The notes beneath the pieces were generated by a model. That model was not told the DNA's origin, searched no databases, and was given only the letters and a program-made list of their open reading frames with translations. A DNA stretch of 64,000 bases, taken from the NCBI GenBank assembly GCA_025352225.1, contig JANXTT010000125.1, positions 1 through 64,000 on the forward strand. The letters run 5' to 3'. Origin of the DNA: Mucilaginibacter sp. Its GTDB lineage: Bacteria; Bacteroidota; Bacteroidia; Sphingobacteriales; Sphingobacteriaceae. Positions 6,803-58,968 of this stretch are shown here, piece after piece (the stretch's first letter is position 1; every line of letters begins with the position of its first letter). The translations under genes and the position numbers were made by a program.

Positions 6803-8455
6803 ATGCCTAACTTTATTCAAAGTCCGAAGGTAAAATCACAGATAAGTTTTATCAACGTGATCTTACAAAACTCAAAAGTGCCAGTAACAACCATCGTTGC
6901 ATATACGGTGCTATCAGGCATTGCTAATGCCTGCCTTTTATCTGTGCTTAATAGTGCATCTAATTCCGCCGACAACGGCAGTGTTAATATTAAATATATT
7001 GCCCTGTTTGGTGTAGCGCTTGCCCTTTTTTATATCACTAAACGATATATCCTAAGGCAATCGGTAGAGATCGTTGAAACCTCAATATATAACATCAGGA
7101 TGCGTTTGTTAGAAAAACTTCGCCATTGTGAGTTATATGTAATGGAATTCATAGGTAAAGGCGAAATATTTAACCGCATATCGCAGGATGCAAATTTTAT
7201 TTCCCAATCTGCCGCGGTAATTGTTAACGCGGCTCAGGCAACGGTGCTTGTTTTTTTTACGCTCATTTATATAGGGTTCCTTTCTATAAAGGCATTTTTG
7301 ATTACCGTTACTATTATATATATAGGTACAACCTATTACCTGCACAGGCAAACGCTTATTAATAAAGAATTACAGGAGGCGGGTGAAAACGAAACATCAT
7401 TATATAACCACATCGAAGATCTGTATGAGGGTTTTAAAGAGATCAAGATCAATCATCGTAAAAACAACGATTTGTTTAAGGATGTAAAAGATACCGCCAC
7501 CATTGGCCGCGATGTAAAAACACAAACAGGCTTAAGATTTGCCGTTGGGTTTATGTTTTCCGAAATAGTATTTTATTTACTGCTTGGCTGCGTTGTGTTT
7601 TTGCTTCCGCAGATCGAAACCATGTATACAGGTTCTTTAACCAGGTTAACAGCTTCTATACTATTTATAATTGGTCCGCTCGAAAACATAGTAACAACTA
7701 TTCCCTTATTTATCCGGGCTAATAACGCTACAAAAAACATTCAAAAGTTAGAACAAAAAATTGATAGTGCCGGCGATCAGCAAAATAAAAATATCAATTC
7801 TGACCCTTTTGATTTTAAAGATATTAAACTTAAAGATATCACTTTTGATTATCTTGACGAAAGTAAAGAATCCACCTTTTCACTCGGCCCTATAAATTTT
7901 ACGCTTAAAAAAGGCGAGATCGTTTGTATCTTGGGTGGTAATGGCAGCGGCAAGTCAACATTTCTTAAAACTTTGTCAAGCCTTTACCTGCCTACAACGG
8001 GTATAATAAGCATCAACGGTAAGCCGCTCTCAGCCGATAATGCACAACGGTACCGATCGTTATTCTCCATTATTTTTACCGATTTTCACCTCTTTCCTAA
8101 AATTTACGGTGTAGAGAACCTGAGTGCCGAAAAAGTTAACAATTATATAGAATTAATGGGCCTGGCAGATAAAACCTCTTTCGACGGTGAAAACTTTTCG
8201 AGCCTTAAGCTCTCAACCGGTCAGCGAAAACGGCTGGCACTCATCTGTTCCATGCTCGAAGATAAGCAGATTATGATACTTGACGAAGTAACTGCCGATC
8301 AGGATCAGGAATTTAAGCGGTTCTTTTATACTTCCATATTGCCCGATCTGAAAAAGCAAGGCAAAACTGTTTTAATGGTATCGCATGATGATAAGTATTT
8401 TGAACAGTTTGATAAGGTATACAAAATGGAGTATGGAAAAATAACAACACTTTAA
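6803..8455 (+). CDS. Cyclic-peptide-type ABC exporter (fused TMD-NBD)
   Basis: A 550-residue half transporter of the YojI/SyrD/PvdE type, usually found with non-ribosomal peptide clusters. Residues 1 to about 310 hold the membrane helices (for example TIVAYTVLSGIANACLLSVL and VVFLLPQIETMYTG). The nucleotide-binding domain follows with Walker A GGNGSGKST near residue 378, signature LSTGQRKR near 470, Walker B IMILDEVTAD near 490 and the H-loop MVSHDD near 527. There is no C39 peptidase domain, which argues against bacteriocin export and for a lipopeptide substrate. It is first in the plus operon, 18 bases before the acyl-ligase/PKS gene. Export of the lipopeptide, also giving self-protection, is the likely role. 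The length is normal for the family. Confidence 0.85.
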   Translation: MPNFIQSPKVKSQISFINVILQNSKVPVTTIVAYTVLSGIANACLLSVLNSASNSADNGSVNIKYIALFGVALALFYITKRYILRQSVEIVETSIYNIRMRLLEKLRHCELYVMEFIGKGEIFNRISQDANFISQSAAVIVNAAQATVLVFFTLIYIGFLSIKAFLITVTIIYIGTTYYLHRQTLINKELQEAGENETSLYNHIEDLYEGFKEIKINHRKNNDLFKDVKDTATIGRDVKTQTGLRFAVGFMFSEIVFYLLLGCVVFLLPQIETMYTGSLTRLTASILFIIGPLENIVTTIPLFIRANNATKNIQKLEQKIDSAGDQQNKNINSDPFDFKDIKLKDITFDYLDESKESTFSLGPINFTLKKGEIVCILGGNGSGKSTFLKTLSSLYLPTTGIISINGKPLSADNAQRYRSLFSIIFTDFHLFPKIYGVENLSAEKVNNYIELMGLADKTSFDGENFSSLKLSTGQRKRLALICSMLEDKQIMILDEVTADQDQEFKRFFYTSILPDLKKQGKTVLMVSHDDKYFEQFDKVYKMEYGKITTL

Positions 8456-8473
8456 AAAATCAAATAAGTTATT

Positions 8474-11400
8474 ATGTTTTGTAATCACATTGCATATAAA
8501 AATGTAGGCTCTGTTTTACAGAAGCTATATACCAATCCCGAAGCCAAAGAGATCGTATTTGTAAAAGACTCCAAACAAGAGGATGCTATTACCTACACCA
8601 CCCTGATACATGAGGCGGCAAAATTGCTATCGTACCTTCAAAAGCTGGGGCTGAAGCCCGGCGACGAGTTATTGCTGCAAATAGACGATAACAAAAACTT
8701 TCTTATCGCATTTACATCATGCCTTTTAGGTAACATTATTGCCGTTCCGCTGGCGGCGGGTATGCAGGATGAGCATAAAAAGAAAGTGAAAAACGTTTGG
8801 CAGCAAATGAAAACGCCTTTTTTGCTTGGCGATCAAGAAACATTGAACAGGCTCGACAAGTTTTTCACTGCCGATACAAATGATGGGGCCGAATGGTGGG
8901 CAAAAGCACAGGCCAATATCATTAAGTGGCCGTTATTGTTATCGCCATCGCTTAATATAAAGTTTTATGATAAGGTAGATACCCACGACCTGGTTTATAT
9001 CCAGTTCTCATCCGGCTCAACCGGGAGCCCTAAAGGTGTTAGGGTTACCCATCAAAATATATTGTACAATACTGATAGCATACTTAACTCATCAGATAGT
9101 ATTCCTGGCGAAACCATGGTGAGTTGGCTGCCGTTAAGTCATGATATGGGTTTGGTGGGCTGCTTTTTATGCGGATTGCTAAATGACCTTAAACAGGTAA
9201 TCATTCCAACTGGCCTTTTTATCCGTAATCCGCTTTTATGGATGGATAAGGTACATAAGCATCGTGGCAATATCAGTTTTTCGCCAAACTTTGGTTACAA
9301 ATACCTTTTGCAGGAATGGGAGAATAAAAAGCCCGTAGTAGATTGGGATTTAAGTAGCCTGCGGATAATTTATAACGGTGCAGAACAGATCTCGCACGAA
9401 ATTATAAACGATTTTATAGCCGCATTAAAAAGCCAGCGTTTGCGCGATACCTGTATAGTGCCATGTTATGGGCTGGCCGAAGCTACCCTTGCCGTTGCTT
9501 TACAAAAGGCAGGTACACCAGCACGTTCTATCATCGTTAACAGGCTAAAACTTAGTATCGGTGATGCTATTACTTTGGTTGATGAGGGTGCACAGCAAAG
9601 CACCGCGCTGGTTTGCTGCGGGCGCGCTGTCCAGAATGTAAGCATACGCATTTGCAACCAAGAGCATAAGCCGTTAGGCAACAGGGTAGTAGGCATGGTA
9701 GAGGTAAAGGGCCAAAATATAACTGCTGGCTATTACCAGCACGAAACATCGCCTATAACTGCTGATGGTTGGCTCATTACAGGTGATATTGGATTTTTAG
9801 ATAACGACGAACTCTATATTACCGGCAGGCATAAAGAGATAATCATTATCAACGGCATCAATTACTATCCGTACGATATTGAAAAGGTTTTAGAAGCTAA
9901 CGATCAAAAAACATTCGCGCTTACTAAGGTCGCGGCCTCAAGCGTGTTCGTAAAAGAACTTAATAAAGAAGCCCTTATTGTATTTATAACATCGCGCTTA
10001 AGCGGAGCAGATTTTGTACCCGTTGCAGAACTGGCCCGGCGGGTAGTAATGAAACACTTTGGCTTGGTTATAGCAGATGTTGTACCAGTTAAACGTATAC
10101 CTAAAACTACCAGCGGAAAGCTGCAACGCACTAAACTTAGCGCCGAGTATCAAGAAGAATTGCAACAAAAAGAACCCGGTTTTGTAGCCTCATACCCGGA
10201 GGAGCAAACTGTAGTACAACTGATACATGATGAAATATTAAAACGGTACGGACTTAATGATATTGACAATAACAAGCCGCTGATTGACCTGGGTTTCGAT
10301 TCGTTAAGAAGCACCGAACTGATAAGTGTTTTAAACAAAGCGTTACATATAAAACTTTCGCCCACAGTGGTGTTTGAGTACGCTACCATAGCGCAGTTGG
10401 TTAAACATATTTCAGGTATAAAATCCGCATCACAAATACAGGATGCACCCATTATTTCAAACAAACCTTTAACCGGTTTTGAAGCTGTTGCCGTTATTGG
10501 CATGTCGTGTGTGTTTCCGGGCGGAGCCAATAGCCCGGAGCAATTATGGGATATTTTGATAAATGGAACCAATACCGTAAAAGAAGTACCTTCCGAAAGA
10601 TGGAACGCTACCGAATTTTACGATTCTGCTTACCAAACCGCCGGAACGAGTAATACCATGTATGGTAGTTTTATTGATAATGTACAAGGCTTTGACGCGG
10701 CCTTTTTTGGCATTTCTCCAAGAGAAGCCGAGTCGTTAGATCCCCAACAGCGCCTTTTGCTCGAAGTAAGTTTTCAGGCGTTGCAATCGGCAAGGTATTC
10801 TTTGCAGAATGTAAGCGGCAGCAATACCGGTGTTTATATAGGCTTTAGTCACAGCGATTATACACAGGCACATATCCATTCGGGCCAGCCCAACAGGATC
10901 GACCCGTATTCGCTAACTGGTACTATCAGCAGTACAGCCGCGGGCCGGCTTTCTTACTTTTATAATTTGAGCGGCCCCGCAATGATTATTGATACGGCCT
11001 GCTCATCTTCTTTAGTGGCCATACATAATGCCTGCCGCGATTTGCAATTCGGCGATTGTAACATGGCTCTTGCCGGTGGTGTAAACCTGTTGCTTGTGCC
11101 CGAATCATACGTGGCGCTTACAAAAATACAGGCCCTATCGCCCGATGGGACATGTAAAACTTTTGACGGTTCTGCCAATGGCTATGGCCGGGGCGAAGGC
11201 TGCGGTATGGTAGTTTTAAAATTACTGAAAAACGCAGTGGCCGACGGCGACCCGGTACTGGGTGTTATCCGTTCATCGGCCGTTAATCACGATGGTAAAA
11301 GTAATGGTTTAACAGCTCCAAACGGGTTGGCACAACAAAGCCTGCTTAAAAAGGCAATTGCCCTATCAGAACTTACTGCCGGGCGCATTAGTTACCTTGA

Positions 11401-14400
11401 GGCGCATGGAACCGGTACACCTTTAGGCGATCCGCTCGAAATACACGCGGCCAATACAGCTTACCAAAGTAATGGCCGTAAAGGAAAACTTTTAATAGGA
11501 AGCATCAAATCCAATATCGGTCACCTCGAATCAGCTTCGGGTATTGCCGGGTTTATAAAAATACTATTATCCATGCAGCATCACCGTTTACCGGCCAATC
11601 TGCATTTTAAGCAACCCAACCCGCTTATTGCCTGGAACGATATTGATATACAAGTGGTAGATAAAAACCGCGAATGGAATACCGACGGGCTATTGGCTGC
11701 CGGTATCAGTTCTTTTGGCTTTAGCGGCACCAATGCGCATATTATTGTGGAAGAAGCCCCTGCAAAGCATCAGGGCACTGCCATACAAAGCCAATATGCG
11801 CTCACCTTATCTGCACATAGTAAACCAGCGCTTAAACAAATGGCCGCAGGTTTAATACAATACCTGCAAAATAATATGGATGTTAATACGGCTAATCTGT
11901 GTTACCATCTTAATTGTGGTAATAATTCATTCCCATACAATGGGCAAGCCGTTATCAGTAATAATGAGGAATTGGTAAAATACCTTATTACACTGCAATA
12001 TAATGATGATGAAGTATTTGTACGGCATAATAATGTACAGCAACCTCTTGCTTTCCAATTTACCGGTCAGGGGTCTCAGTATACCGATATGGGCCGCGAA
12101 TTGTATAACGAGTACGAAGCCTATCGCGATGCCTTGAACGAGTGCGATAAGTTTTACCGCAAACACAACGATAACAATTCTATCCTTTCCATAATTTTTG
12201 AGGCCGACGAGGAGAAAAAGGTCGATCAAACCAAATTTACGCAACCGGCAATATTTTGTACTGGCTATGCTTTAACCAAACTTTTTGAAAGTTTTGGCAT
12301 AGTGCCCGATGTAGTGCTTGGCCATAGTGTTGGCGAGTTCATTGCCATTTGTGTGGCCGGTATCATATCGCTCGAAGACGGTATCAGGCTTATTTGCAGC
12401 CGGGCTGCATTTATGCAAAGCCTTCCGGCCGGCGGTGGCATGGTATCGGTAATGGCACCGGTAAGCCAGGTGCTTGATGTAATAAAAAAGCTTAATGTTT
12501 CGGTTACCGTTGCCGGGATAAACAGTCCTAACCAAACTGTAATATCGGGTTTGCTTGATGAATTGCAAGTGGTTAAGCAGCATTTGCAATTACAAGAGTT
12601 TATATGCATTCCACTTACCGTATCACATGCGTTCCATTCACCGTTAATGCAGCCAATTTCTGCCGGGCTTTTAGATGTAGTTAATCAAATTCAATTTAAT
12701 AAACCCCGCATTGCAGTTATTTCTAATGTTACCGGGCAGGAGTTTACTAAAGAACAATGGAATGATCCTCAATATTGGGTGCAGCATTTACTGCAGCCGG
12801 TACAATTTGTAAATTCAATTAAAACCCTTGAGCGTTTGGGATGTAACCTGTGTGTTGAGTTAGGGCCGCAGCCCGTTTTAACCAACCTGGCCAAACAAAC
12901 CCTGCCCAATGCCGACAGCTTTATATTTACCTTGCGCAAGGGCCAATCGGCAGCGGCACAATTTTTAAAAAGCTTGTGCATCCTTAAACAACGGGGCGTA
13001 AATGTAGCCTGGAAAATGGCAGTGGGTAATACTTATCATCCATACCTGCAACTTCCTCCATACCCGTTCCAACGCAAAAAATACTGGAAAGAATTAATGA
13101 TAGGTAAACGCCTGCCTGCCGCTGGCATGCCCCTGCCCCATGCAGTTGCGGATACCAATTTGCTTTATGATGTTCAATACGAGGCCATTGATAAACCGTA
13201 TGCAGCAGATAAAATTGTGCACGGTTCAGAGATCATAATTATCTACGATCAGCAATCAGCACTGGCTAATAAACTGTTATTAAATTATGCGGATGCAGGT
13301 ATAAAAGCTGTGACATATTCAATAAACCAGTTAAATGATGCTTTACCCATGGCCTCCAAAAGCATAGTTTGTTATATAGCCAATGTGCACGCCGCACCCA
13401 ATGTCAGTATTAGCTATGATGATATAAATAATGCCTTTGTCATTTGCAAGGTTATAGTGGCTCAAACTCATTTGCCCCAATTGATATTTTTAACCAACAA
13501 TGTACATGCTTCTGCCCAAAATACTCTGGTTAATTTTAGCAATTGTTTATTATGGGGTTTTGTAACTGCTTTAAAGCACGAGTACGCTCATCTGGAAATA
13601 TCTGTAGCCGATATTGATCCTAATTACAACATCTGGCAGTTAATGTCAGTTATCAGCCATGCCGGGGAGCTTCCGTTGCAGCTCATTATTAATGACGATA
13701 AATGGATGGCGCCTCGTTTAAAAGCAGCCCCTAAAACCACAGCTAAAATCCAATTTAGAAACAATTGTACGTACCTGTTAACCGGAGGCTTTGGCAATAT
13801 AGGCACCCTGTTAATTAACTGGATGATTCAAAAAGGCGCACGCAATTTTGTATTGGTTGGTCGTAGTGAAATAACATCGGCACGCAAGGGTCTGGTTAAT
13901 GCCTGGGAAAAACAAGGCTGCCGTATTGAATATATAAAGGCCGATGTAAGTAATCGGGATAATTTAACCAGCGAATTAAGTAAACTGAATGATCTGCCGC
14001 CTTTTGCAGGGGTTTTTCATACAGCGGCAGTGCTGAATGATAAACTATTATCATCGCACGATGCAGACAGCTTTACAGCGGCTTTTGACGGAAAGGTACA
14101 GGGCGCATGGAACCTGCACCAATTAAGCCTGCAATGGCCATTGGATCATTTTGTCATGTTTTCTTCAACGGCATCAATACTAGGTAATCCCGGCCAAACC
14201 AATTACGCGGCTGCCAATTACTTTTTAAACAGCCTTTCCTCGTTCCGCCGCGCACAACAGCTGCCTTCATTAAGCATTTGCTGGGGCCCCTGGGAAGGCA
14301 GTAACATGATCACCGGGCTGGACGATACCTTCCAAAGCGTTGGTATCCAGTTATTACAGCCCGAAATAGCATTCAACGCTCTTGAAACAGCCCTGCAACA

Positions 14401-14908
14401 AAAAACAGCTGGGGTGGTTGCCGCCATTAGCCTGCAACCGGAACGGTTTATGGCAAACAGCCCACATTGGCTGCATCAGTTTTTACCCCCGGAATGGCAA
14501 GTTGCTCAAACTGAAAATAACATGGTAGCTGAAAAAGTAAGTTTTGATACCGAAGATGGGGCTTTGTCAATGCTCGAAAAACTGGCCAGAGCCATTTTAC
14601 AACTTGAACCCGACGACGTGCTTAATGTACAACGACCTTATTTTGAAATAGGCTTTGATTCTATTATGCTAAGTGCTCTTCAGGGTAAAATACGTAGCTA
14701 TACGGGTATCAATGTTCCAATTTCGCAGTTTTTTCAGTATCCTACGCTTAACTCGCTCGCGGGTTATATTATGCAATCTTCATTGCCTAAACGGCCTTTA
14801 GCCAAAAGCCGTGAAATTATAAATACCCACACCATATCCGACGAGTTAAAGCAGCAAGTAAGCCTGCTGTCTGATAATGATATCACCGAATTATTAAATC
14901 AATATTAA
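8474..14908 (+). CDS. Fatty acyl-AMP ligase / type I PKS loading-extension protein (AL-ACP-KS-AT-KR-ACP)
   Basis: 2144 residues. Residues 1 to about 560 are an acyl-AMP ligase (YIQFSSGSTGSPKGV; YITGRHKEIIIINGINYYP, typical of fatty acyl-AMP ligases; TTSGKLQRTKL near 545). ACP1 has GFDSLRS near 606. The KS spans about 670-1095 with active-site DTACSSS (Cys near 841), EAHGTGT near 975 and NIGHLESASG near 1014. The AT spans about 1190-1500 with FTGQGSQ, GHSVGE near 1283 and HAFH near 1385, which predicts malonyl-CoA. The KR (about 1560-1960) has GGFGNIG for NADPH and a Ser...Tyr catalytic set in SSTASILG...TNYAAAN. ACP2 has GFDSIM near 2059. There is no DH or ER, so the first extension should leave a hydroxyl. 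It would activate a fatty acid and start the lipopeptide chain; handover to the KS-KR-ACP protein at 52886-56497 is inferred. It carries the only AT in the cluster. Confidence 0.92.
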   Translation: MFCNHIAYKNVGSVLQKLYTNPEAKEIVFVKDSKQEDAITYTTLIHEAAKLLSYLQKLGLKPGDELLLQIDDNKNFLIAFTSCLLGNIIAVPLAAGMQDEHKKKVKNVWQQMKTPFLLGDQETLNRLDKFFTADTNDGAEWWAKAQANIIKWPLLLSPSLNIKFYDKVDTHDLVYIQFSSGSTGSPKGVRVTHQNILYNTDSILNSSDSIPGETMVSWLPLSHDMGLVGCFLCGLLNDLKQVIIPTGLFIRNPLLWMDKVHKHRGNISFSPNFGYKYLLQEWENKKPVVDWDLSSLRIIYNGAEQISHEIINDFIAALKSQRLRDTCIVPCYGLAEATLAVALQKAGTPARSIIVNRLKLSIGDAITLVDEGAQQSTALVCCGRAVQNVSIRICNQEHKPLGNRVVGMVEVKGQNITAGYYQHETSPITADGWLITGDIGFLDNDELYITGRHKEIIIINGINYYPYDIEKVLEANDQKTFALTKVAASSVFVKELNKEALIVFITSRLSGADFVPVAELARRVVMKHFGLVIADVVPVKRIPKTTSGKLQRTKLSAEYQEELQQKEPGFVASYPEEQTVVQLIHDEILKRYGLNDIDNNKPLIDLGFDSLRSTELISVLNKALHIKLSPTVVFEYATIAQLVKHISGIKSASQIQDAPIISNKPLTGFEAVAVIGMSCVFPGGANSPEQLWDILINGTNTVKEVPSERWNATEFYDSAYQTAGTSNTMYGSFIDNVQGFDAAFFGISPREAESLDPQQRLLLEVSFQALQSARYSLQNVSGSNTGVYIGFSHSDYTQAHIHSGQPNRIDPYSLTGTISSTAAGRLSYFYNLSGPAMIIDTACSSSLVAIHNACRDLQFGDCNMALAGGVNLLLVPESYVALTKIQALSPDGTCKTFDGSANGYGRGEGCGMVVLKLLKNAVADGDPVLGVIRSSAVNHDGKSNGLTAPNGLAQQSLLKKAIALSELTAGRISYLEAHGTGTPLGDPLEIHAANTAYQSNGRKGKLLIGSIKSNIGHLESASGIAGFIKILLSMQHHRLPANLHFKQPNPLIAWNDIDIQVVDKNREWNTDGLLAAGISSFGFSGTNAHIIVEEAPAKHQGTAIQSQYALTLSAHSKPALKQMAAGLIQYLQNNMDVNTANLCYHLNCGNNSFPYNGQAVISNNEELVKYLITLQYNDDEVFVRHNNVQQPLAFQFTGQGSQYTDMGRELYNEYEAYRDALNECDKFYRKHNDNNSILSIIFEADEEKKVDQTKFTQPAIFCTGYALTKLFESFGIVPDVVLGHSVGEFIAICVAGIISLEDGIRLICSRAAFMQSLPAGGGMVSVMAPVSQVLDVIKKLNVSVTVAGINSPNQTVISGLLDELQVVKQHLQLQEFICIPLTVSHAFHSPLMQPISAGLLDVVNQIQFNKPRIAVISNVTGQEFTKEQWNDPQYWVQHLLQPVQFVNSIKTLERLGCNLCVELGPQPVLTNLAKQTLPNADSFIFTLRKGQSAAAQFLKSLCILKQRGVNVAWKMAVGNTYHPYLQLPPYPFQRKKYWKELMIGKRLPAAGMPLPHAVADTNLLYDVQYEAIDKPYAADKIVHGSEIIIIYDQQSALANKLLLNYADAGIKAVTYSINQLNDALPMASKSIVCYIANVHAAPNVSISYDDINNAFVICKVIVAQTHLPQLIFLTNNVHASAQNTLVNFSNCLLWGFVTALKHEYAHLEISVADIDPNYNIWQLMSVISHAGELPLQLIINDDKWMAPRLKAAPKTTAKIQFRNNCTYLLTGGFGNIGTLLINWMIQKGARNFVLVGRSEITSARKGLVNAWEKQGCRIEYIKADVSNRDNLTSELSKLNDLPPFAGVFHTAAVLNDKLLSSHDADSFTAAFDGKVQGAWNLHQLSLQWPLDHFVMFSSTASILGNPGQTNYAAANYFLNSLSSFRRAQQLPSLSICWGPWEGSNMITGLDDTFQSVGIQLLQPEIAFNALETALQQKTAGVVAAISLQPERFMANSPHWLHQFLPPEWQVAQTENNMVAEKVSFDTEDGALSMLEKLARAILQLEPDDVLNVQRPYFEIGFDSIMLSALQGKIRSYTGINVPISQFFQYPTLNSLAGYIMQSSLPKRPLAKSREIINTHTISDELKQQVSLLSDNDITELLNQY

Positions 14909-50800: not shown

Positions 50801-52883
50801 GTTTATTAAAGGTATTAAGCTCATTATAAAATAACGAAACTTCGATGTTTGTGGCCCTGTCGGTGTTTATCCGTTGCTTTAGTTGGATGATGAGAATGGA
50901 ATCCATACCCATCGAAAAAAAATCGTCGTCAGTTTTTATCTTACCTGCCGGTAGCTCGGTTATTTCTTCCAGAACCCGGTATAAATAAGGAATGGTATCT
51001 TCCGGAAAAGGCAACTTAGCGGAATCGCTAATCAGTTCGGATTGGATTTTTTCAACCTCATCTGCACCATTAATAAGTGCTAAATAAGCAGCTGAGTATA
51101 CCCACATATCCAGGTGGTGAAACTGATATACCGGTATACTTACCCGTTTGCCGTTAAAATGATCAGAAAGTAGAATAGCATTGTTGCCGTTAACATATTT
51201 ACCGGCTATACTGATCAGATCAGCACTGTTTTTGGAGTTAACAAATGGTGATACCAGTACATTTGTACTATTGGCAGTGTTATACCCGGACAGCAGGTTT
51301 ATCAAATCGGCTTTATCGGTTGCTATCATTGCCGTTCTTACGGCAAAATGATCGCGGTATAGGGCCGCTGTATGGCATATGTCGGTTAAGCTATTGGTGG
51401 TATTTGTTAAATAGTTTTGATACGCTTCTATCAATAAATTTAACGATGGTGTATCTTTTGCGGATAACAACAGCACTACCGGCTGGCCGTTATCAGCAAC
51501 AGGCTGATCGGCCACAATTTGGGCCGACTCCAATATCATGTGTACATTGGTTCCGCTAAAGCCAAATGAGCTAATGGCAGCTGTTACAGGTTTTTCGGTG
51601 TTTTCAATACTTACCGGGTTTGTAGCTATGCGGATTGACGCATGCCAGGTAACAGCGTTATTGGATTGCTTAAAATGAAGATTAGGCGGTATGGTTTTAT
51701 GATAGAGCGCCAGTGTTGTTTTAATTAACGAGGCAATACCCGCCGCCGCTTCCAAATGGCCAATATTTGTTTTTACGGTACTAACATATAATGGATGGTT
51801 AGCCGGCCTGTTTTTACCATATACCTTTCCTAATACCTCAATTTCAATAGGATCGCCTAATTTGGTTCCGGTGCCATGCGCTTCTACAAACGAAATTTCG
51901 GAGGCTTCGATATTGGCATTTTGTAACGATTTAAGGATAACTCTTTCTTGCGCAGTGCCGTTGGGGGCGGTCATGCCATTACTTAAACCATCCTGGTTTA
52001 TAGCCGATCCTTTGATAAGCGCAAATATGTGGTCGCCATCTTTTAAGGCGTCGCTATATCTTTTTAATACTACAATACCACAGCCTTCTCCGCGTCCGTA
52101 TCCATCTGCCGAGGCATCAAAAGATTTGCAGCGCCCATCTGCAGATATGGCATGGGTTCTTGACAGTGCAATGTGCCCAAATGGCAATAATATATGGTTT
52201 ACGCCGCCTGCCAGTACCAGGTCGGTCTTTTTTAAGCGTAATTCTTGAATACCCAGGTCAACAGCGGCTAATGAAGATGAACAGGCAGTTTGTACTACCA
52301 TATTTGCACCCTGCAAGCCCATAAAGTAAGAGAGCCGCCCGCTTGCACTTGATAAAGAATGACCGGTTACAGAATGAGGGTTTATGGTTTTACCCCTATC
52401 GCCAGATGTGATGTACGAATAATCATCATCAGAGATACCCATATAAACTGCTGTATTGCTTCCGGATAATTGGGATGGCCTGATGTTGGCTGCTTCGAGT
52501 GCTTGCCATGCTGTTTCGAGTAACACGCGCTGCTGTGGAGCCATTTGCTTGGCCTCGGCAGGTAAAATATTAAAAAAAGCCGCATCAAAGCCTTTAATGT
52601 CTTTTAAAAAAGCTCCCGACTGGCAATACGTTTTACCGGGGCTATCCGGATCTTCGTCATAAAATAAATCAGCGTTCCATCTGTCGGCGGGTATCTCTCT
52701 CACCGGATCGTGGCCTTTATACAGGTTATCCCAAAATTGTTCAATATTATCAGCATCCGGAAAACGGCCAGCCATACCAATAATTGCAATAGGTTCGGTT
52801 TGCTGCTGCTCAAAACCTGCCAGCTTTTCTTCGGCCAGTTTTAATGCTGTATATAATTTTTTAGTCAGATCGATATTCTCCAT
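47886..52883 (-). CDS. PKS-aminotransferase-condensation hybrid (KS-ACP-AMT-C)
   Basis: 1665 residues. The KS (31-455) has active Cys C201 in QTACSSS, EAHGTGT and NIGHLEAAAG. No AT, KR or DH domain follows. The ACP has GMDSI near 661. A class III, PLP-dependent aminotransferase (about 770-1180) has SYHGTYDG and the Schiff-base Lys in YGKIIGGG near 1020. A condensation domain (1195-1640) has HHIICDG near 1331. This is the mycosubtilin/iturin arrangement: the beta-keto acyl-ACP is converted to a beta-amino acyl chain, which the C domain joins to the first amino acid (Asn). The gene starts 2 bases after the KS-KR-ACP gene. Malonyl loading must come in trans, from the AT at 8474-14908 or from a stand-alone transferase elsewhere in the genome. 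Confidence 0.92.
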   Translation of the reverse strand: MENIDLTKKLYTALKLAEEKLAGFEQQQTEPIAIIGMAGRFPDADNIEQFWDNLYKGHDPVREIPADRWNADLFYDEDPDSPGKTYCQSGAFLKDIKGFDAAFFNILPAEAKQMAPQQRVLLETAWQALEAANIRPSQLSGSNTAVYMGISDDDYSYITSGDRGKTINPHSVTGHSLSSASGRLSYFMGLQGANMVVQTACSSSLAAVDLGIQELRLKKTDLVLAGGVNHILLPFGHIALSRTHAISADGRCKSFDASADGYGRGEGCGIVVLKRYSDALKDGDHIFALIKGSAINQDGLSNGMTAPNGTAQERVILKSLQNANIEASEISFVEAHGTGTKLGDPIEIEVLGKVYGKNRPANHPLYVSTVKTNIGHLEAAAGIASLIKTTLALYHKTIPPNLHFKQSNNAVTWHASIRIATNPVSIENTEKPVTAAISSFGFSGTNVHMILESAQIVADQPVADNGQPVVLLLSAKDTPSLNLLIEAYQNYLTNTTNSLTDICHTAALYRDHFAVRTAMIATDKADLINLLSGYNTANSTNVLVSPFVNSKNSADLISIAGKYVNGNNAILLSDHFNGKRVSIPVYQFHHLDMWVYSAAYLALINGADEVEKIQSELISDSAKLPFPEDTIPYLYRVLEEITELPAGKIKTDDDFFSMGMDSILIIQLKQRINTDRATNIEVSLFYNELNTFNKLANYLAQHQGGQQNAPANADAPHHLSTHQRSAAKVFIPYKEVNLLQESLDGIKEKALQKLITDVNTISNSSKTHTQLYRSWLANNRNIAGFRPRWKEMTYQLVAAKGNKAHIWDKDGNRFLDFSMGFGVNLFGYNPEFVQQSLHQVIDDQLVLGALAPAAGELAEAICTVTGNERAAFYNTGTEAVMVAIRLARAITGKNKIVLFAGSYHGTYDGILAREGTEIYAEPLAPGIAPSMVQDVIVLHYGSDEDLDIIRDLAPDLAAVLVEPVQSRHPDIFPVNFLKELEVITKQHEIALIFDEVISGFRFSINGIRSFTDVKADITVYGKIIGGGIPVGVVAGRARFLDAVDGGFWNYGDQSYPSSKSTFVAGTFCHHPLAMAAGLSVINHLKQHPDLYQKLNDTAHYLCTHLNNWFTDNLLNIRMIHFGSLFRFALKGNEELLFYKLLAKGIYIWEGRNCYLSTVHTSDDIELLIASVKESCLELINEGWISQVEIMEPSAQTDENILTLSPAQRGVWWAQQLSDDTSTFNLSESFLVTGPFNKTVFEQACCAIIAQHEILRTSFAENEGVPFQKVHERFAFTIKQFSLKHLDEQDAINEALKILERKIREPFNLEEAPLLNIMVYEVGENKLVLTIVAHHIICDGWALEVLFDEVIDTYNSLLNNTKATNRAPASLQYRHYINHTLEPAHLQQLQHYWHQQVNGINTLTLNGDISNANTGNEAFDEILIDGETYASLSSIVKNNHVSPFTVLSAVTKLLLYTYTGQNDIAIGTPVPGRVQTKWNKLIGLCLNMLVLRSKINTADTFAAYLQQLQALILNAYEKQEYSFELLRSECSGDRLPNEMPFFEIEIAMQNFRMHRHNKGRNFAGIQIEAFADLSLDSRKYPIEFRFDEGYEDVLLKVAYDPGRYSSDFIKTLLNDWQQLYQLVTQSASISINDIVTSLQHKKAQSQQSSLKNNRQNNLSKLISTSN

Positions 52884-52885
52884 AG

Positions 52886-55800
52886 CTAAAAGTATTTTTG
52901 GATGTCGGCATTGATAAGGGCATGGAGTTCGTCCTCCTTCATCATGTTTAATTCAAATTCAAGGTTGGCAATCTTTTCGGCGTTTGGCAATAATCCCTCT
53001 GCCGGGCTTTTTGTACCGAAAAAGCTGTCGTTAATATGTTGGCTAAATAATTTTACCGTATGGAAATTGAAGATCATGTTTGTGGTTATCGGCTGTTTAA
53101 ATTGCTTTTGCAGTTTTTCTATAAAGCGTATTACCAGTATCGAGTCCATTCCCATATCGCTAAAGTTTCTGTCACAATCAATTTTTGCAACATCATCTAT
53201 CGCTAATACAAGGCATAATTGTTCGGCTATTATTTGCTGTATCTTTTTGTAACGCTCGGCAGGTTTTGACTTTTGCAGCTCTTCGTCTAAAATATCTAAG
53301 CCCTGGTTTGTTGTATCAGCCTGTTCCTTTTTTACTGTGCGTAACTCATCCCAAAAAGCAGATTGTTTTTGGAGCTGCATAACGGCTATAAAGCGCTGCT
53401 TATCTAGCTGTACATAAACCTGCTGGCTATGTTGCGGGTGTAGTAGTTGTGCATAATGTTTTAAAACGGCATCTTGCTTATGGGTAATAATGCCGGTTTC
53501 GCGTAATACATGTTCGCTGTTTTCGTCTTGCAGCATCATGTTGCTATCTGCCCAGGGCCCCCAGTTGATGGCTTTTGCCGGGATGCCATTAAGGCGCATT
53601 TGCACAATATAAGCATCCATATAGGCGTTTACAGCCGCGTAATGCGAAAGCATAGCCGAACCCCATACCGATGCTATAGAAGAGTAGGCTACAAAAAAAT
53701 CAAGTGATTGTAATGGTAAGTGGTTGGCTAAATTGCGCAGCCCGTTTACTTTGGCATGAGCTACCTTTTCTATATCGGCCCAGCTCATATCCTTAAATAA
53801 TTTCCTGTGCGAAATACCAGCAGCATGTATTATGCCTTTTAGTTCTAAGTTATTGTTAGTAAGCCAGTTACTAAATGCTGTAACCGAGGCCGGGTCGCTA
53901 ACATCTAGTTTGGTATGTATTACATTGTGGTTTATTTGTTGTGTTTTTTGCTGGGTGTTACGGCTTGCCAATATTATTTTACCGGCATTTTGTGCCTGTA
54001 GCCATTGTGCAACATGCTTGCCTAAACTGCCATTACCACCGGTAATAAGGTATACACCCTCCTTATTTATTTTTACGGACAAGCTTGTTGTATTATCAGC
54101 ATCCGGGGCTATAACCTGGTAGTATAAGCGGCCTTCGCGAAGGGCAAGTTGTTGGTGATACTGTTGCTGAAACCATACGGCTATATTTTGTTTGCCAAGT
54201 TGGTTGGCAGTAGTGGCTAATCCAATATCAAAAAGTAGCATATGCAGGTTAGGCAACTCCAAACTGGCTGACCTGGCCCATGCGGTGATGCTGTATTGTA
54301 ATGGCTCAATAGTTTTATCGCTATCGGTAACCTGGGCGGCTTGTTGGGTTAAAACAATAAATGATGCAGGTTTAAGCTGCGAAGCGGAGAGGGTTTGCAA
54401 ACAGGTTAAAATGTTTTGGTACGATGTTTTAAAAAGATCGTTAAAATGTTCGTCGTTACCGTGGTCGTGCAGTCCGCTTATATCGTATACAATATAAACT
54501 GATTGGTTTTTATACTGTTGAAATATATCTTCAAAAAAATGTGCTAATCCGGCTTGCGTATTAATGTAAGGATAGGCTTTATCGTTATTTTGCTGTTGCC
54601 AGTAAACAGGTATGGTTGTTATTGCTGGATTGGTTTGTAAGCCCTGTAAAAATACTGATGAAGTAGGATTGATGTGCAAATAAATTCCTGCAACTGCTTG
54701 TTCGGCCTCGGTTTCTGCCACATCAATGGCTTTCCAGGCCAACTGATATTGGTTTAACGGATGTATATTTCCAGGTAATGGCCCAACCCAATGTGGTGTG
54801 AGGGTAAAAGCATAGTGCGGCAGGCTTACTTTTCCCCCTTTTATTATACCGCCTATCTCTGATAATGGTTTTGTAAGTGGAACTGATTTTTGCAAAGCAG
54901 AGATCATGGTTTGTTTATCGGCCGCCTGTGATAGCAGAGCGTATTTGTATATGTTTTTGCCTATTGCCGCTGTGTAGCAAATATTTTGTAAGGTATGGTT
55001 GGTATTGGATAAATAATCCAGATAGGCTGATCTTAAATTTTCGAGCACTGTAATGGTAGGTGCTGTAATAACAAGTGTTTGATGGGAGCCGGGCTGAGCG
55101 GCATCTTGTGTTTTTTGATTGTATTCCGCAAGTATGCAGTGGGCAATGGCACCGGTAAAGCCAAAGGAGCTAACTCCGGCGATAAGCAATTTATCAGAAT
55201 TACTGTAATCGTGCAGTTTAGTGTTTAATTCTACCGGAAGGGTTTCCCAGGCAATATGCTTGTTTGGTGTATTATAATGCAGGTGGCCTGGCAGTTTTTT
55301 ATGATATAGGCTTAAGCTGGCTTTTATTATACCGGCCAAACCCGCTGCCGCCTCAAGGTGCCCAACATTTGTTTTGATGGAGCAAATACGCATTTTTTTA
55401 CCGTTGTTCCATTCGCCATAGCCCAGTTTTAATCCCTCCATTTCAACGGGGTCGCCCAGTGATGTACCTGTGCCGTGCGCTTCCAAAAAATCAACATCGT
55501 TAGCTGTTATGCCTGCGGTTTTAAGCGCTTGTTTTATAACAGATGCCTGTGCCACCGGATTAGGTACAGTAAGCCCTCCGCTGGCACCATCCTGTGCAAT
55601 GGCTGTTGCTTTAATACATGCATAAATGCGGTCGCCATCTTTTTCGGCATCACTTAATTTTTTAAGCACAATGGCCAAACAACCCTCTGAGCGTACATAG
55701 CCATCGGCCGAGTCGTCAAAAGTTTTGCAATGCCCGTCTGGCGATAGCATACCCGCCTGGGCAAGGCTATCCTGCAATTGTGACGATAACAAAAAGTTTA

Positions 55801-56497
55801 CTCCGCCGGTTAAGGCTAAATTACACTCGCCTGCCCGCAAGCTTGCGCAAGCCTGGTGCAGTGCAACCATTGATGATGAGCATGCCGTATCAATACTAAG
55901 CGAAGGGCCGTTACAGCCAAAAAAGTACGAAAGACGGCCACTTGCCGCGCTTAAGGAGTTGCCGCTGCCTAAATAGGGGCTTACGGCTGTTTGCCCTGGC
56001 TGCTGCATTAAGTGCAGGCTGTAATCAACTGCGCTTATACCTATAAATATACCTGTTTCCGAATTTTTTAGCGACTGTGAGGCTATACCCGCATCTTCAA
56101 AGGCTTTGTATGCTACCATGAGCATGTGCCTGTGCTGCGGATCTATAAATTGAGCTTCGGTTGGCGAGATGTGAAAAAAGTCGTTATCAAAGCCTGCTAT
56201 ATCTTCTAATAAACCGGCATGGGATACAGTATTGTCAAAATAATGATCATCGGTATGTATCCCGCGCCAGCGGTTGGCTAAACCATTATAAGCTATCAGG
56301 TCGCGTTCTTCTATTAAGGCATCCCACATTTCTGTGGCCGAGTTGATGTTACCCGGTAAATGACAGGCAATACCAATAACTGCAATGTCTTCTTTACCTG
56401 CACTTTGTTCTGAGGCATCTTTCAGTCGTTGCTGAAGATCTTTAATAACAAGAAATGCCTTTTGTAAAGGTGTAAATTCAGAATTTATTTCAGGCAT
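52886..56497 (-). CDS. AT-less PKS extension module (KS-KR-ACP)
   Basis: 1203 residues. The KS (36-465) has C206 in DTACSSS, EAHGTGT and NVGHLEAAAG, so it should be fully active. The next 350 residues hold the structural half of the ketoreductase, not an AT. The KR has the nucleotide motif GGNGSLG near 811 and a Ser/Tyr catalytic set in YSSIASVWG...SHYAAVNAY near 952. The ACP has MGMDSI near 1118. No DH or ER is present, so this round should leave a second hydroxyl. Its place between the AL-PKS starter and the KS-ACP-AMT protein is inferred from domain logic; gene order on the minus strand agrees. It starts 107 bases after the type II thioesterase gene. Confidence 0.9.
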   Translation of the reverse strand: MPEINSEFTPLQKAFLVIKDLQQRLKDASEQSAGKEDIAVIGIACHLPGNINSATEMWDALIEERDLIAYNGLANRWRGIHTDDHYFDNTVSHAGLLEDIAGFDNDFFHISPTEAQFIDPQHRHMLMVAYKAFEDAGIASQSLKNSETGIFIGISAVDYSLHLMQQPGQTAVSPYLGSGNSLSAASGRLSYFFGCNGPSLSIDTACSSSMVALHQACASLRAGECNLALTGGVNFLLSSQLQDSLAQAGMLSPDGHCKTFDDSADGYVRSEGCLAIVLKKLSDAEKDGDRIYACIKATAIAQDGASGGLTVPNPVAQASVIKQALKTAGITANDVDFLEAHGTGTSLGDPVEMEGLKLGYGEWNNGKKMRICSIKTNVGHLEAAAGLAGIIKASLSLYHKKLPGHLHYNTPNKHIAWETLPVELNTKLHDYSNSDKLLIAGVSSFGFTGAIAHCILAEYNQKTQDAAQPGSHQTLVITAPTITVLENLRSAYLDYLSNTNHTLQNICYTAAIGKNIYKYALLSQAADKQTMISALQKSVPLTKPLSEIGGIIKGGKVSLPHYAFTLTPHWVGPLPGNIHPLNQYQLAWKAIDVAETEAEQAVAGIYLHINPTSSVFLQGLQTNPAITTIPVYWQQQNNDKAYPYINTQAGLAHFFEDIFQQYKNQSVYIVYDISGLHDHGNDEHFNDLFKTSYQNILTCLQTLSASQLKPASFIVLTQQAAQVTDSDKTIEPLQYSITAWARSASLELPNLHMLLFDIGLATTANQLGKQNIAVWFQQQYHQQLALREGRLYYQVIAPDADNTTSLSVKINKEGVYLITGGNGSLGKHVAQWLQAQNAGKIILASRNTQQKTQQINHNVIHTKLDVSDPASVTAFSNWLTNNNLELKGIIHAAGISHRKLFKDMSWADIEKVAHAKVNGLRNLANHLPLQSLDFFVAYSSIASVWGSAMLSHYAAVNAYMDAYIVQMRLNGIPAKAINWGPWADSNMMLQDENSEHVLRETGIITHKQDAVLKHYAQLLHPQHSQQVYVQLDKQRFIAVMQLQKQSAFWDELRTVKKEQADTTNQGLDILDEELQKSKPAERYKKIQQIIAEQLCLVLAIDDVAKIDCDRNFSDMGMDSILVIRFIEKLQKQFKQPITTNMIFNFHTVKLFSQHINDSFFGTKSPAEGLLPNAEKIANLEFELNMMKEDELHALINADIQKYF

Positions 56498-56604: not shown

Positions 56605-57345
56605 TTATAAATTACTATGTTCTAAACAGTTCAATTGATGCTGAATGTACTGCTGGTTGTATGAAAACAGCATGTCTGTAAACAGGGGATTTTCCAAATG
56701 GAAAAAATGGCCACCCTCCAGCATTTCAAATTTGCATCCGGCTTCGGTTTCCTGTTGCCACGCTTTTACAGATTCCGGACTTACAACGGTATCTGCTGTT
56801 CCGTTTATAAGTACAAGTTTTGTGTGTATAAGCGGGGAATTCTTATAGGTATAATTTTCGTTCAGTGCCAAATCATTTCTGATTATGGGCAAATAGAATG
56901 ACAGGAACGAAGTATCTGCAAGCAATGCATCAGGTAAACCGCCAATTGTTTTTAAATAATTAGTGAGATGCGTATCATTAAGTTTGTGTTTTTGCGCGCT
57001 TAATGAGGTATAAGCCGGAGAACCCCGCCCAGATAAAAACATGATCGGAGGAACTTCCATTTTGTTTTGCTGCAAAGCTCTTGCGCATTCAAAAGCTACC
57101 AGAGCGCCGAAGCTGTGACCCATAAAAAAGAAAACGGAGCCGTTTAATTTTGACAAGAGCTGCGCAAGGCAATCATCAATCAGTTCGTTTATGTTTTTTA
57201 CAAAGTTTTCCGAATATCTTCGGCCTCTGCCCGGATAACATATAGTAGATGCATCAAAGCAATGAGATATTGATTTCTCGATAGAAGAATAAGAGATATC
57301 ACTACCTCCTGCATGAGGAAATATAAAAAGCCGGGTTTTTTGCAT
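56605..57345 (-). CDS. Type II thioesterase
   Basis: A 246-residue alpha/beta hydrolase of the external thioesterase family: FPHAGG near residue 9, YPGRGRR near 38, nucleophile Ser in GHSFGAL near residue 75, and a C-terminal EGGHFFH with the catalytic His. Such enzymes clear mis-primed carrier proteins in PKS and NRPS systems. It precedes the PKS gene on the same strand and starts 4 bases after the small membrane protein gene. Start and length are normal for the family. Confidence 0.9.
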   Translation of the reverse strand: MQKTRLFIFPHAGGSDISYSSIEKSISHCFDASTICYPGRGRRYSENFVKNINELIDDCLAQLLSKLNGSVFFFMGHSFGALVAFECARALQQNKMEVPPIMFLSGRGSPAYTSLSAQKHKLNDTHLTNYLKTIGGLPDALLADTSFLSFYLPIIRNDLALNENYTYKNSPLIHTKLVLINGTADTVVSPESVKAWQQETEAGCKFEMLEGGHFFHLENPLFTDMLFSYNQQYIQHQLNCLEHSNL

Positions 57346-57532: not shown

Positions 57533-57537
57533 ATTGT

Positions 57538-58068
57538 TTATTCTGCTGCTACTACTGGTTCTTCAGCTTTCTTTTTTGTAAATGGTTTTTTTACTGTTGC
57601 AACTACGTGTTTTCCTTTTTCAAGTTCTTCGTGAAAGAAATGTTTCATATCTGATGCTTTAAAATCAAGCAGTGTGCCGCCTGTTTCAAAATGACGTTGA
57701 AATACCTTGCCTACTGCATAAGTTGTTGCGCCTGCAATAACGGGATAGGTAACAGCGCCTATAATAGAACCAACACCAGGTATAAATTTAACAATGCTGC
57801 CAAGTGTGCCTGTAGCAAGTGTATTGCTGCCAACAGCTCCAAGTAATGAACCCAATACAGATTTGCCTAACTCGTTGGAGAATTGCACATCGTGTATGCC
57901 GGCAAGTTTGCTTATCATTGAAATTTGTGTTCCGGTAATGGCGGCAATGTCAACAAAAGGAATAGGTATGGCGCCAAATCCCATCGAAAGCAATAAGTGA
58001 TTTTTGATGATCTTGTCAGCCTTTTCTGAAGTTTTAAGTTCGATTGTAACACTTTGATTTTTTGTCAT
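57538..58068 (-). CDS. DUF697 (YcjF-like) membrane-associated protein
   Basis: 176 residues with the DUF697 signature PIPFVDIAAITGTQISMISKLAGI near residues 36-58, followed by glycine-rich hydrophobic segments (VLGSLLGAVGSNTLA, FIPGVGSIIGAVTYPVIAGATTYAVG) that may insert in the membrane, and a Lys-rich tail. The biochemical function of the family is unknown. It lies between the SPFH gene (51-base gap) and the small membrane protein in the lipopeptide operon. Self-protection of the membrane is a possible role, not shown by sequence. Confidence 0.75.
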   Translation of the reverse strand: MTKNQSVTIELKTSEKADKIIKNHLLLSMGFGAIPIPFVDIAAITGTQISMISKLAGIHDVQFSNELGKSVLGSLLGAVGSNTLATGTLGSIVKFIPGVGSIIGAVTYPVIAGATTYAVGKVFQRHFETGGTLLDFKASDMKHFFHEELEKGKHVVATVKKPFTKKKAEEPVVAAE

Positions 58069-58119
58069 GATAGATGAAGTTTTGGTTGTGATTGATTTAT
58101 TAATTGTTTGTTTTGGTTT

Positions 58120-58968
58120 TCATTTTTTTTTACCGTCGTCGCTTAACAGTATTGGCAGTTCTTTAGACGAGTTACCCATGATAACGATTTTTGCATTAGG
58201 CGATCTCGACATCTTTTCGGTTACATCCAATCCTTTCCATAATAATGGTGATACTCCGGATATTGCATAGAATTGCTTTACGCCTTCGGCCTCAATTATT
58301 TTACGTTTGCGTTCCTTATCTTCAACATCCAGCTTAAAATCATATTGCAGGCTTAACTGTTGCTCCCGGTATTTTTGCTCGATAGAGTGCGATATGGTAT
58401 CGGGCAGTTCTATCCTGCTGATCAGGTAACCTTGAAGGTTAATATTGTTTTTGATGCATATGGCATTTAAATTTGATATTACATATTTTTCCATAGAATC
58501 GTGATCTACACCTTTGTCAACCAAAAAAATTTGTTCGGGTGTAAGGTGGGCAATAAATTTCCGGGTCCATGATTCGGCCTCGGGTATAACCAGCACCTGG
58601 GCATAATTTGGCCCTATTTGCTGGTGTAATTTGCTCAGATACACAAAATCAGGCCGGTATAATATATTATACTTAACCTTTATTTTTAGCCCGTTTTGAC
58701 TCAGGATAGTTTGTTGCTGTTGTATCCGTTGCGTTCGTAGGTTATAGATGTACATTTTATTTAGTGGACTGATCATTTTTAACCCTTCTGTATAAACTTC
58801 GGGCTGGCTTCCTTTAAACAAATCATATAAAACACCAGCTTCTCCTGGTTTTATTGTTACAAAAATTCTGTTACTAAGTATAATGAGTATAAACAGTATT
58901 ACCAGTACCGTAACTGATAAGTTTCTTAACGTAGCATTTATTTTTTCCTTTTTAAACCAATTTGTCAT
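58120..58968 (-). CDS. SPFH/prohibitin-family membrane protein
   Basis: 282 residues. An N-terminal membrane helix (about residues 17-37, LSVTVLVILFILIILSNRIFV) is followed by an SPFH/Band 7 domain (VTIKPGEAGVLYDLFKG, YTEGLKMISPLNKMYIYNLR, KVKYNILYRPD). A C-terminal helical region (EQKYREQQLSLQYDFKLD) is the family's oligomerisation coiled coil. Such proteins form large rings or microdomains in the membrane. It heads the 40-kb minus operon, with an 836-base upstream region that presumably holds the promoter. It may scaffold the synthetase complex or protect the cell's own membrane from the lipopeptide. Confidence 0.85.
   Translation of the reverse strand: MTNWFKKEKINATLRNLSVTVLVILFILIILSNRIFVTIKPGEAGVLYDLFKGSQPEVYTEGLKMISPLNKMYIYNLRTQRIQQQQTILSQNGLKIKVKYNILYRPDFVYLSKLHQQIGPNYAQVLVIPEAESWTRKFIAHLTPEQIFLVDKGVDHDSMEKYVISNLNAICIKNNINLQGYLISRIELPDTISHSIEQKYREQQLSLQYDFKLDVEDKERKRKIIEAEGVKQFYAISGVSPLLWKGLDVTEKMSRSPNAKIVIMGNSSKELPILLSDDGKKK

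Follow-up and report, generated by a model that had tools for sequence, protein, structure and literature searches.

A complete orphan PKS-NRPS locus of mixed ancestry in Mucilaginibacter, predicted to make a cyclic beta-amino lipoheptapeptide

Contig G000:C23 of a Mucilaginibacter genome is 100,049 bases long, and its opening 64,000 nucleotides, called the window here, were analyzed for a cluster of polyketide synthase (PKS) and nonribosomal peptide synthetase (NRPS) genes. Domains were called by Pfam scans, which took in 25 proteins of the window, and by an annotation built from the window's own domains. The cluster spanned about 6803 to 57345, and its large open reading frames, which fill about 50 kb and match Pfam families down to E = 6.7e-242, lie far beyond chance. 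The PKS assembly order was FAAL-ACP-KS-AT-KR-ACP / KS-KR-ACP / KS-ACP-aminotransferase-C (FAAL, fatty acyl-AMP ligase; ACP, acyl carrier protein; KS, ketosynthase; AT, acyltransferase; KR, ketoreductase; C, condensation domain). The NRPS order was I-A1-T-C-A2-T-C / I-A3-T-E / C-A4-T-C-A5-T-C / I-A6-T-C-A7-T-TE, where A, T, E, and TE are adenylation, thiolation, epimerase, and thioesterase domains and I is a C-like domain without the HHxxxDG motif. The gene for a stand-alone TauD oxygenase lies before NRPS1 and that for a TauD-aldolase fusion before NRPS4, while the exporter, PKS1, carbamoyltransferase, and CmlA-type hydroxylase genes lie on the strand opposite to the NRPS genes (Table 1). All catalytic motifs that were looked for were intact. 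The only AT of the window is in PKS1, and the other two PKS modules are AT-less; one AT seemingly serves several PKS modules. In the related clusters of genomes G342 and G765, described below, a strong AT match was found only in the aminotransferase protein.

An earlier reading of the sequence alone, made without database searches (the sequence-only reading), had named a KS-ACP-aminotransferase-C protein, three polyketide rounds, carbamoylation, and three possible hydroxylases. The domain and motif analysis found the KS-ACP-aminotransferase-C protein, three KS domains, a carbamoyltransferase, a CmlA-type hydroxylase, a TauD, and a TauD-aldolase protein. Of the domains counted as C in that reading, three lack HHxxxDG.

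Table 1. Genes and domains of the cluster, with coordinates in the window
Feature	Coordinates	Strand	Domains and evidence
Cyclic-peptide export ABC transporter	6803..8455	+	NCBIfam TIGR01194, 344.1 bits (cut-off 286.2); Pfam ABC_tran
PKS1 FAAL-ACP-KS-AT-KR-ACP, loading and first extension round	8474..14908	+	AT 12044-12973, motif HAFH
O-carbamoyltransferase, NodU-like family	14915..16654	+	Pfam Carbam_trans_N and Carbam_trans_C; NCBIfam NodU model under cut-off
CmlA-type diiron beta-hydroxylase	16715..18340	+	Pfam CmlA_N 2.9e-86; HSHQDH metal motif
NRPS4	18433..25293	-	Interface-like 24094-25281; A6 (Asp) 22564-24078; T; DCL-type C 20953-22272; A7 (Thr) 19384-20928; T; TE 18436-19098
TauD-class II aldolase/adducin-family fusion	25305..27155	-	TauD 26121-27092; aldolase-family domain 25308-26045
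NRPS3	27167..34852	-	DCL-type C 33512-34843; A4 31964-33484 (substrate unassigned); T; C; A5 28826-30337 (substrate unassigned); T; C for module 6 27233-28552
NRPS2	34855..39273	-	Interface-like 38047-39267; A3 (Asn) 36499-37986; T; E 34900-36231
NRPS1	39283..46863	-	Interface-like 45574-46836; A1 (Asn) 44068-45546; T; C; A2 (Tyr) 40924-42411; T; C for module 3 39337-40647
Stand-alone TauD iron/2-oxoglutarate oxygenase	46874..47884	-	Pfam TauD 1.8e-42
KS-ACP-class III aminotransferase-C, third round and beta-amination	47886..52883	-	KS 51312-52799; aminotransferase 49329-50648; C 47949-49295
PKS2 KS-KR-ACP, AT-less, second round	52886..56497	-	
Type II thioesterase (editing)	56605..57345	-	Pfam Thioesterase 3.7e-34; GHSFG motif

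The specificity of the A domains was read from nine code positions taken from alignments, using the established code-to-substrate table. Codes 1 to 3 were DLTKIGEVG (Asn), DASTIAAVC (Tyr), and DLTKIGEVG (Asn), and codes 6 and 7 were DLTKIGHVG (Asp) and DFWNMGLVH (Thr). No substrate was assignable to codes 4 and 5 (DVTCFALIY and DVGHLSMVE). The same procedure, run as a positive control on the annotated genes for bacillomycin D, gave Asn-Tyr-Asn-Pro-Glu-Ser-Thr, the known order of that compound. The C-terminal domain of NRPS2 fell in the epimerase clade (100/100; all sets quoted here with branch support were starred in the trees), so Asn3 is expected to be D. The order Asn-Tyr-D-Asn-X-X-Asp-Thr that the sequence-only reading had drawn from the seven A domains was thus borne out, as was a beta-amino-acyl heptapeptide line in a Bacteroidota genome.

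The E domain after residue 3 was the only one in the window, with none after Tyr2 and none in module 6. Domains C4 and C7 fell in the DCL clade of C domains that act after epimerases (11 rows, 100/100), which also includes L102_4592_3368 (L numbers denote loci read in other genomes). By context, nine of the 11 members follow an E domain; C7 and one Chitinophaga domain do not. A DCL-type C7 behind a module 6 that lacks an E domain suggests that residue 6 may arrive as D or achiral by other means.

The lineage of the aminotransferase was examined by a scan of named genomes, which gave at least 80 loci. A quick tree of 83 rows had no starred set containing the window; its rows were 72 of the 80 named loci and 11 others, and L087, L118, L119, L121, and L123-L126 had been set aside beforehand because they were weak, partial, or distant. 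In a careful tree of 45 rows, hand-chosen to span the clades (39 of the 80 loci and six others), the window aminotransferase was found in a 16-row clade (96/92) with eight iturin-type enzymes of Bacillus, Paenibacillus, and Viridibacillus, three enzymes from other phyla or orders, and its sisters, four stand-alone Bacteroidota aminotransferases (96/85). The Burkholderia, cyanobacterial, Chitinophaga, and G342 enzymes were outside this clade. The iturin link proposed by the sequence-only reading is therefore real for the aminotransferase. The nearest enzyme in this analysis was 54% identical; at least 50 plasmid records had an aminotransferase match, the best one listed being from Paenibacillus (52.5%), and BamA of bacillomycin D reached 49.9%.

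The same reading had taken an aminotransferase-C starter followed by Asn-Tyr-D-Asn as the hallmark of the iturin family. For the aminotransferase-C starter this was not supported, since an aminotransferase directly followed by C in one frame was found in 46 of the 80 listed loci, across Bacillota, Cyanobacteria, Pseudomonadota, Acidobacteriota, Chloroflexota, Bacteroidota, and Actinomycetota. What makes the residue order iturin-like is its start: among 27 listed loci with two readable downstream A domains, Asn-Tyr as residues 1 and 2 was found in three, all of them Bacillus. The phylogeny of the starter C domain pointed neither way. In the best tree the starter C domains of Bacillus, Burkholderia, G342, G027, and L071 formed a clade (100/94) that did not include it, and approximately unbiased (AU) tests rejected neither its joining with the Bacillus domain (p = 0.27) nor with all five (p = 0.45). 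Stand-alone aminotransferases near the iturin-type lineage were also seen in Bacteroidota metagenome-assembled genomes (L067, L068, L073, L078, L085, and L086), with no other cluster domain detected in the stretches read. Of 60 congeners listed, 26 had an aminotransferase match, and most of these matches lay in open frames about 2,200 residues long. In one congener, locus L166 (G032:C13:125001-137000) combines AMP-binding, KS, AT, ACP, and aminotransferase domains in one protein, followed by C-A-T-TE and a phosphopantetheinyl transferase.

We then weighed whether the locus could be a genuine iturin-family synthetase acquired from Bacillus that makes a decorated iturin or bacillomycin. With this family (bacillomycin D, NZ_CP083716 bamDABC) the window shares the plan of a beta-amino acyl heptapeptide, the Asn-Tyr-D-Asn start and the Thr end (positions 1, 2, 3, and 7 match bacillomycin D), the aminotransferase lineage, and an AT-less aminotransferase PKS module, and it likewise has the FAAL, KS, and class III aminotransferase for a beta-amino fatty acid. 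The position of C4 and C7 next to the Bacillus DCL domains (97/80) would fit a D residue 6 as in the iturins, and a joining of the starter C with its Bacillus counterpart was not rejected, as noted above. However, the A domains had another history. In a tree of 55 rows, for which A domains had been picked beforehand by their code and length, both Asn A domains of the window grouped with those of G342 and the Burkholderia cluster (100/99), the Bacillus Asn domains being the next group, and an exclusive clade of window and Bacillus Asn domains was rejected (AU p = 0.009). The Tyr A domain grouped with domains of a Burkholderia occidiofungin-like cluster and of Chitinophaga (L090) (99/93), both of which carry a CmlA gene, and its placement with the Bacillus Tyr domains was rejected (AU p = 0.0004), so the Tyr module is not derived from Bacillus. 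A Bacillus ancestry of the whole line was rejected by these tests.

The architecture differs as well. The iturins have the configuration L-D-D-L-L-D-L, and bacillomycin D has three E domains, whereas the window has no E domain after Tyr2 and does not encode this pattern. The iturin line uses one PKS round, a separate malonyltransferase, and an aminotransferase-C-T-C-A protein, but the window has three rounds, its AT lies inside PKS1 with no separate malonyltransferase gene seen in the cluster, its aminotransferase is followed by no extra C-T, and its FAAL is on another protein. Residues 4 to 6 also differ, even the closest aminotransferase is no more than 54% identical, and the window has interface-like domains, TauD, CmlA, and a carbamoyltransferase in addition. 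An iturin synthetase taken over from Bacillus is therefore a very improbable account of the locus; of the family assignment in the sequence-only reading, the aminotransferase lineage and the residue order stood, and the ancestry of the Tyr and Asn A domains, the E-domain pattern, and the PKS plan did not. The remaining A domains were also placed: A4 and A5 were sister domains inside a clade with Ser-type domains (98/99), which is still too little to assign a substrate, and A6 was sister to the Asp A domain of G342 (100/100).

The other known system of this kind is the occidiofungin/burkholdine group, represented by a Burkholderia arboris record (NZ_CP101526). Its PKS frames are broken in this unannotated record, in which three KS, two KR, and an aminotransferase were read. 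If the window were a Bacteroidota member of this group, the same three-round plan for a 3-amino acyl chain (three KS, two KR, aminotransferase-C), a CmlA 53% identical, a TauD, and Tyr-type and Asn A domains in shared clades would be explained. However, the codes read downstream of the Burkholderia aminotransferase (Ser, DGMNIASVC, Dab, DIWQLIADS, Asn, Ser; Dab, diaminobutyrate) differ from those of the window, and so does the E-domain pattern; the two aminotransferases lie on opposite sides of a branch supported at 99/82, and no aldolase-family domain was found in the Burkholderia cluster. Occidiofungin and the burkholdines have the residue order Ser-BHY-Dab-Gly-Asn-Ser-Asn (BHY, beta-hydroxytyrosine), in contrast to the order read in the window, and occidiofungin carries a C7 oxygen. 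No halogenase was present among the cluster proteins scanned, and a family-2 glycosyltransferase gene just upstream (4518-6416) has no known link to the cluster. The Burkholderia record is itself a putative member of this group, and membership of the window line is highly unlikely. Hydroxyls at C5 and C6 of the amino acyl residue (NMR table), beta-hydroxy-Tyr, and beta-hydroxy-Asn are given for occidiofungin in passages of PMC10897925. Since at least one defining feature of each group that was tested was absent, the window line works like the iturin and occidiofungin lines and is a member of neither.

Relatives of the line were found in G342 and G765, two genomes of the same class but of another order. 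Their clusters share with the window a FAAL-KS-KR / KS-AT-ACP-aminotransferase-C start, an interface-like-Asp module, a TauD-aldolase fusion (52% identity), an Asn module, an ABC exporter, and a type II thioesterase. They differ in residue order (DLFNNALTY, Val, Asp, DVGEIGSID, DARHLALMV, DLYDFSLVW, Asn), in having two PKS rounds, and in that no CmlA or carbamoyltransferase was found in the 80 kb read from the FAAL gene onward; the last NRPS protein of G342 ends in an E domain. Among described Bacteroidota products, the chitinopeptins of Chitinophaga are cyclic lipopeptides with a 3-amino fatty acid in A and B and beta-hydroxylated residues, according to passages of PMC9248904, but they differ from the predicted window product in sequence and in length (14-15 residues). 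Locus L099 of C. eiseniae, which has a CmlA and a one-round FAAL-KS-AT-ACP-aminotransferase start, is a candidate chitinopeptin cluster only. The congener G044 has a further Asn/Tyr-rich beta-amino lipopeptide line (G044:C10:1-38238; L162, L163) with the codes Asn-like, Asn, Asn-like, Tyr, Gly, Tyr. Each of its two Tyr A domains has a long insertion that may be a methyltransferase, and the line also has a CmlA, a type II thioesterase, and an ABC exporter; the window thus belongs to a wider set. As the sequence-only reading had supposed, no identical published product was met among the open-licence papers listed in the searches or in passages of some of them.

On these grounds the locus is probably a complete orphan PKS-NRPS line for a cyclic, heavily beta-hydroxylated beta-amino-(dihydroxy)acyl heptapeptide, which would be exported by the cyclic-peptide ABC transporter, whose score was above the cut-off of its model. 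In the proposed pathway, the FAAL would load a fatty acid, two KS/KR rounds would add two hydroxyls, and a third round would end in transamination to give a 3-amino-5,7-dihydroxy acyl chain. Seven modules would then add Asn-Tyr-D-Asn-X-X-(D?)Asp-Thr, and the TE would close the ring, most likely via the beta-amine. The interface-like domains before A1, A3, and A6 may dock the two TauD oxygenases, which would act as beta-hydroxylases on carrier-bound Asn1/Asn3 and Asp6; the CmlA-type enzyme would hydroxylate Tyr2, and the carbamoyltransferase would cap one hydroxyl. The domain order, active-site motifs, A codes, E domain, interface-like clade, and aminotransferase lineage were read directly from the sequence, from which the oxygenase-module pairing, carbamoylation site, ring closure, and all bioactivity are extrapolated.

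The docking step depends on the three N-terminal C-like domains, which lack HHxxxDG and are near full length (about 395-420 residues). Interface domains are C-family domains without HHxxxDG that directly precede the A domain of a hydroxylated residue, and the layout of this definition (no HHxxxDG, A next) was found in three of three candidate modules. The domains were compared in a C-domain tree of 85 rows, in which the interface-like label (no HHxxxDG, N-terminal, A next) was set before the tree was made. Possession of a TauD gene was one of the grounds for choosing the genomes, and the tree did not include the Burkholderia 59270 protein or six C-like stretches of fewer than 300 residues. The 14 prelabelled domains formed one clade (100). 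Three of them belong to the window, eight are cyanobacterial, one is acidobacterial, and G027 and G342 contribute a single domain each. Outside the window, eight of 11 precede an Asp or Asn A domain, the exceptions being L074 and L109 (DSALIAEVW) and G027 (DAWQFGLIQ). Seven of the 11 directly follow a TauD gene (L072, L074, L088, L091, L109, L110, and G027) and one follows a C-TauD fusion (Nostoc L046); in G342 the TauD lies elsewhere in the cluster, and L082 and L098 had no TauD in the stretch read. The full order C / TauD / I-A was found in L072, L074, L088, L091, and L109 and twice in the window, while in L110 the C ahead of TauD is cut by the locus end. A profile of the domains gave 63 hits among PDB sequences, including C, E, and Cy domains, so they belong to the C-domain superfamily; none of the best 60 of the 63 matches was named an interface domain. 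We infer that the C-like domains of the window are interface domains that would recruit beta-hydroxylases.

The stand-alone TauD is proposed as the beta-hydroxylase for Asn1 and/or Asn3. Its MHNE and AHGR motifs are common to the TauDs of the fusion, G342, and G765, and G553 has MHTE and SHGR. For the CmlA-type protein, which is proposed to act on carrier-bound Tyr2, the PDB comparison gave CmlA at 5.2e-115 and 8a90 at 1.6e-128. A second CmlA of the window's genome, 50% identical, adjoins an NRPS at a contig start (G000:C5:1-8750; L145).

Several observations weigh against the proposed pathway. Residues 4 and 5 have no assigned substrate, and the TauD enzymes are assigned to their modules by gene order. 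CmlA relatives up to 52% identical occur in 13 other Mucilaginibacter genomes; a special Burkholderia link through CmlA was rejected for the same reason. The interface-like domains of the window are very divergent, with best identities of 19-23%, and long branches meet in the tree. In the congener G027 (loci L035-L038), an epimerase precedes the TauD and the interface-like domain, and no ordinary C domain was detected before that A domain, a layout which simple docking does not explain. At protein boundaries that part a C domain from its A domain, bacillomycin proteins likewise open with a truncated C-like stretch, and the window domains could have no more than such a boundary role. The three domains would then be degenerate remnants, and the TauDs would act elsewhere, for example on the acyl chain; this would suit their location at the three C-A junctions of the window that are split between two proteins, the shorter C-like stretch of Bacillus (208-244 residues) at the same type of boundary, and the G027 arrangement. 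However, the length of the window domains and a clade that spans Bacteroidota, Cyanobacteria, and Acidobacteriota, with members mostly beside TauD genes, speak against remnants, in a tree whose length limit excluded the short stretches of Bacillus, Burkholderia, and Nostoc. We regard the remnant explanation as unlikely and retain docking as part of the pathway.

Interface domains working with siderophore beta-hydroxylases are cited in passages of the antiSMASH 8 paper (PMC12230676), and chitinopeptins with beta-hydroxy-Asp coordinate iron, as stated in parts of PMC9248904. The same assembly line could on this basis make a lipopeptide whose main role is iron chelation through beta-hydroxy-Asp and beta-hydroxy-Asn. 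This seems quite unlikely, as the exporter is of the cyclic-peptide type and no TonB receptor or siderophore-uptake family was found by Pfam among the 25 proteins of the window, a count that covers the window part of the contig.

The TauD-aldolase fusion had Pfam matches to TauD (1.3e-43) and Aldolase_II (2.4e-43). Fused full-length homologues were rare: one in 395 genomes of the phylum (G342; any match in nine), two in 390 genomes of G342's order (G342 and G765; any match in seven), and within the genus, where three of 149 genomes had a match, only the window's own genome. Among 390 plasmid records with a match, four covered most of the query at 28-32% identity; two of the four were opened, and in both TauD and aldolase were separate neighbouring genes, which on a Thalassospira plasmid adjoin a FAAL and a protein with A- and C-like domains. 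The fusions of G342 and G765 lie within the FAAL-KS-KR / KS-AT-ACP-aminotransferase-C clusters, each with one interface-like module reading Asp, and the TauD halves of the fusions formed one clade (100/98). The aldolase half scored best among PDB sequences against 4xxf (labelled fuculose-1-phosphate aldolase), followed by NovR (1e-40) and TqaM (4.5e-30). It shares the HxH...H motif with TqaM and NovR, class II aldolase-fold oxidative decarboxylases; in the window, by contrast, the domain shares a protein with TauD, and its gene adjoins that of an NRPS module. The three-His metal motif (HTHS, NHG; aligned with 9ryg and 9m09) is kept in the window, G342, and G765, while the Glu of TqaM/NovR (HSEIH/HAEIH) is Ala in all three (HAAIH). 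A predicted model of the fusion from a 4-row alignment was poor (mean pLDDT 37.9).

Tentatively, the fusion may remodel carrier-bound Asp6, its TauD half giving beta-hydroxy-Asp that the aldolase-family half then cuts or rearranges. TqaM carries out the decarboxylative oxidation of a 2-hydroxy-3-amino acid, according to passages of PMC11880133; because carrier-bound beta-hydroxy-Asp contains such a unit, residue 6 could become aminomalonyl. Alternatively, a retro-aldol reaction would give glycyl and glyoxylate, or re-addition would epimerise residue 6, which would explain a DCL-type C7 without an E domain. The Ala in place of the TqaM/NovR Glu, the aldolase label of the top-scoring structure, and the C domain after the Asp module of G342, which is not of the DCL type, all speak against Asp6 remodelling. 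Since that G342 domain is outside the DCL clade, an epimerase role of the aldolase half in all clusters was rejected. No description of a two-domain tailoring enzyme of the TauD-aldolase kind was met among the papers listed in narrow searches of the open-licence literature.

The sequence-only reading had extended the cluster over 6803-58968. The extent found here ends at about 57345, and the DUF697 (57538-58068) and Band_7/SPFH (58120-58968) genes that follow have no evident role and are probably not part of the cluster. Upstream (window 2-6416), three LanC-like proteins are encoded at 2-904, 2105-3160, and 3412-4521, together with glycosyltransferase-like genes at 1288-2076 and at the family-2 position given above; this stretch at the contig start is perhaps an unrelated peptide-modification locus.

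The window product would be a new beta-amino lipopeptide in a phylum where, according to passages of PMC9248904, beta-amino lipopeptides as such are already known. An iturin-like peptide order is carried here in Bacteroidota by parts of different ancestry, and Asn-Tyr-Asn after a beta-amino acid may have arisen more than once, possibly because it works on membranes. The interface-like-Asp module and the TauD-aldolase protein, found together in the window, G342, and G765, pose a directly testable question of assembly-line enzymology. Few beta-amino lipopeptides have been described from this phylum, and the locus is a cluster from which a new, polyhydroxylated one could be sought directly.

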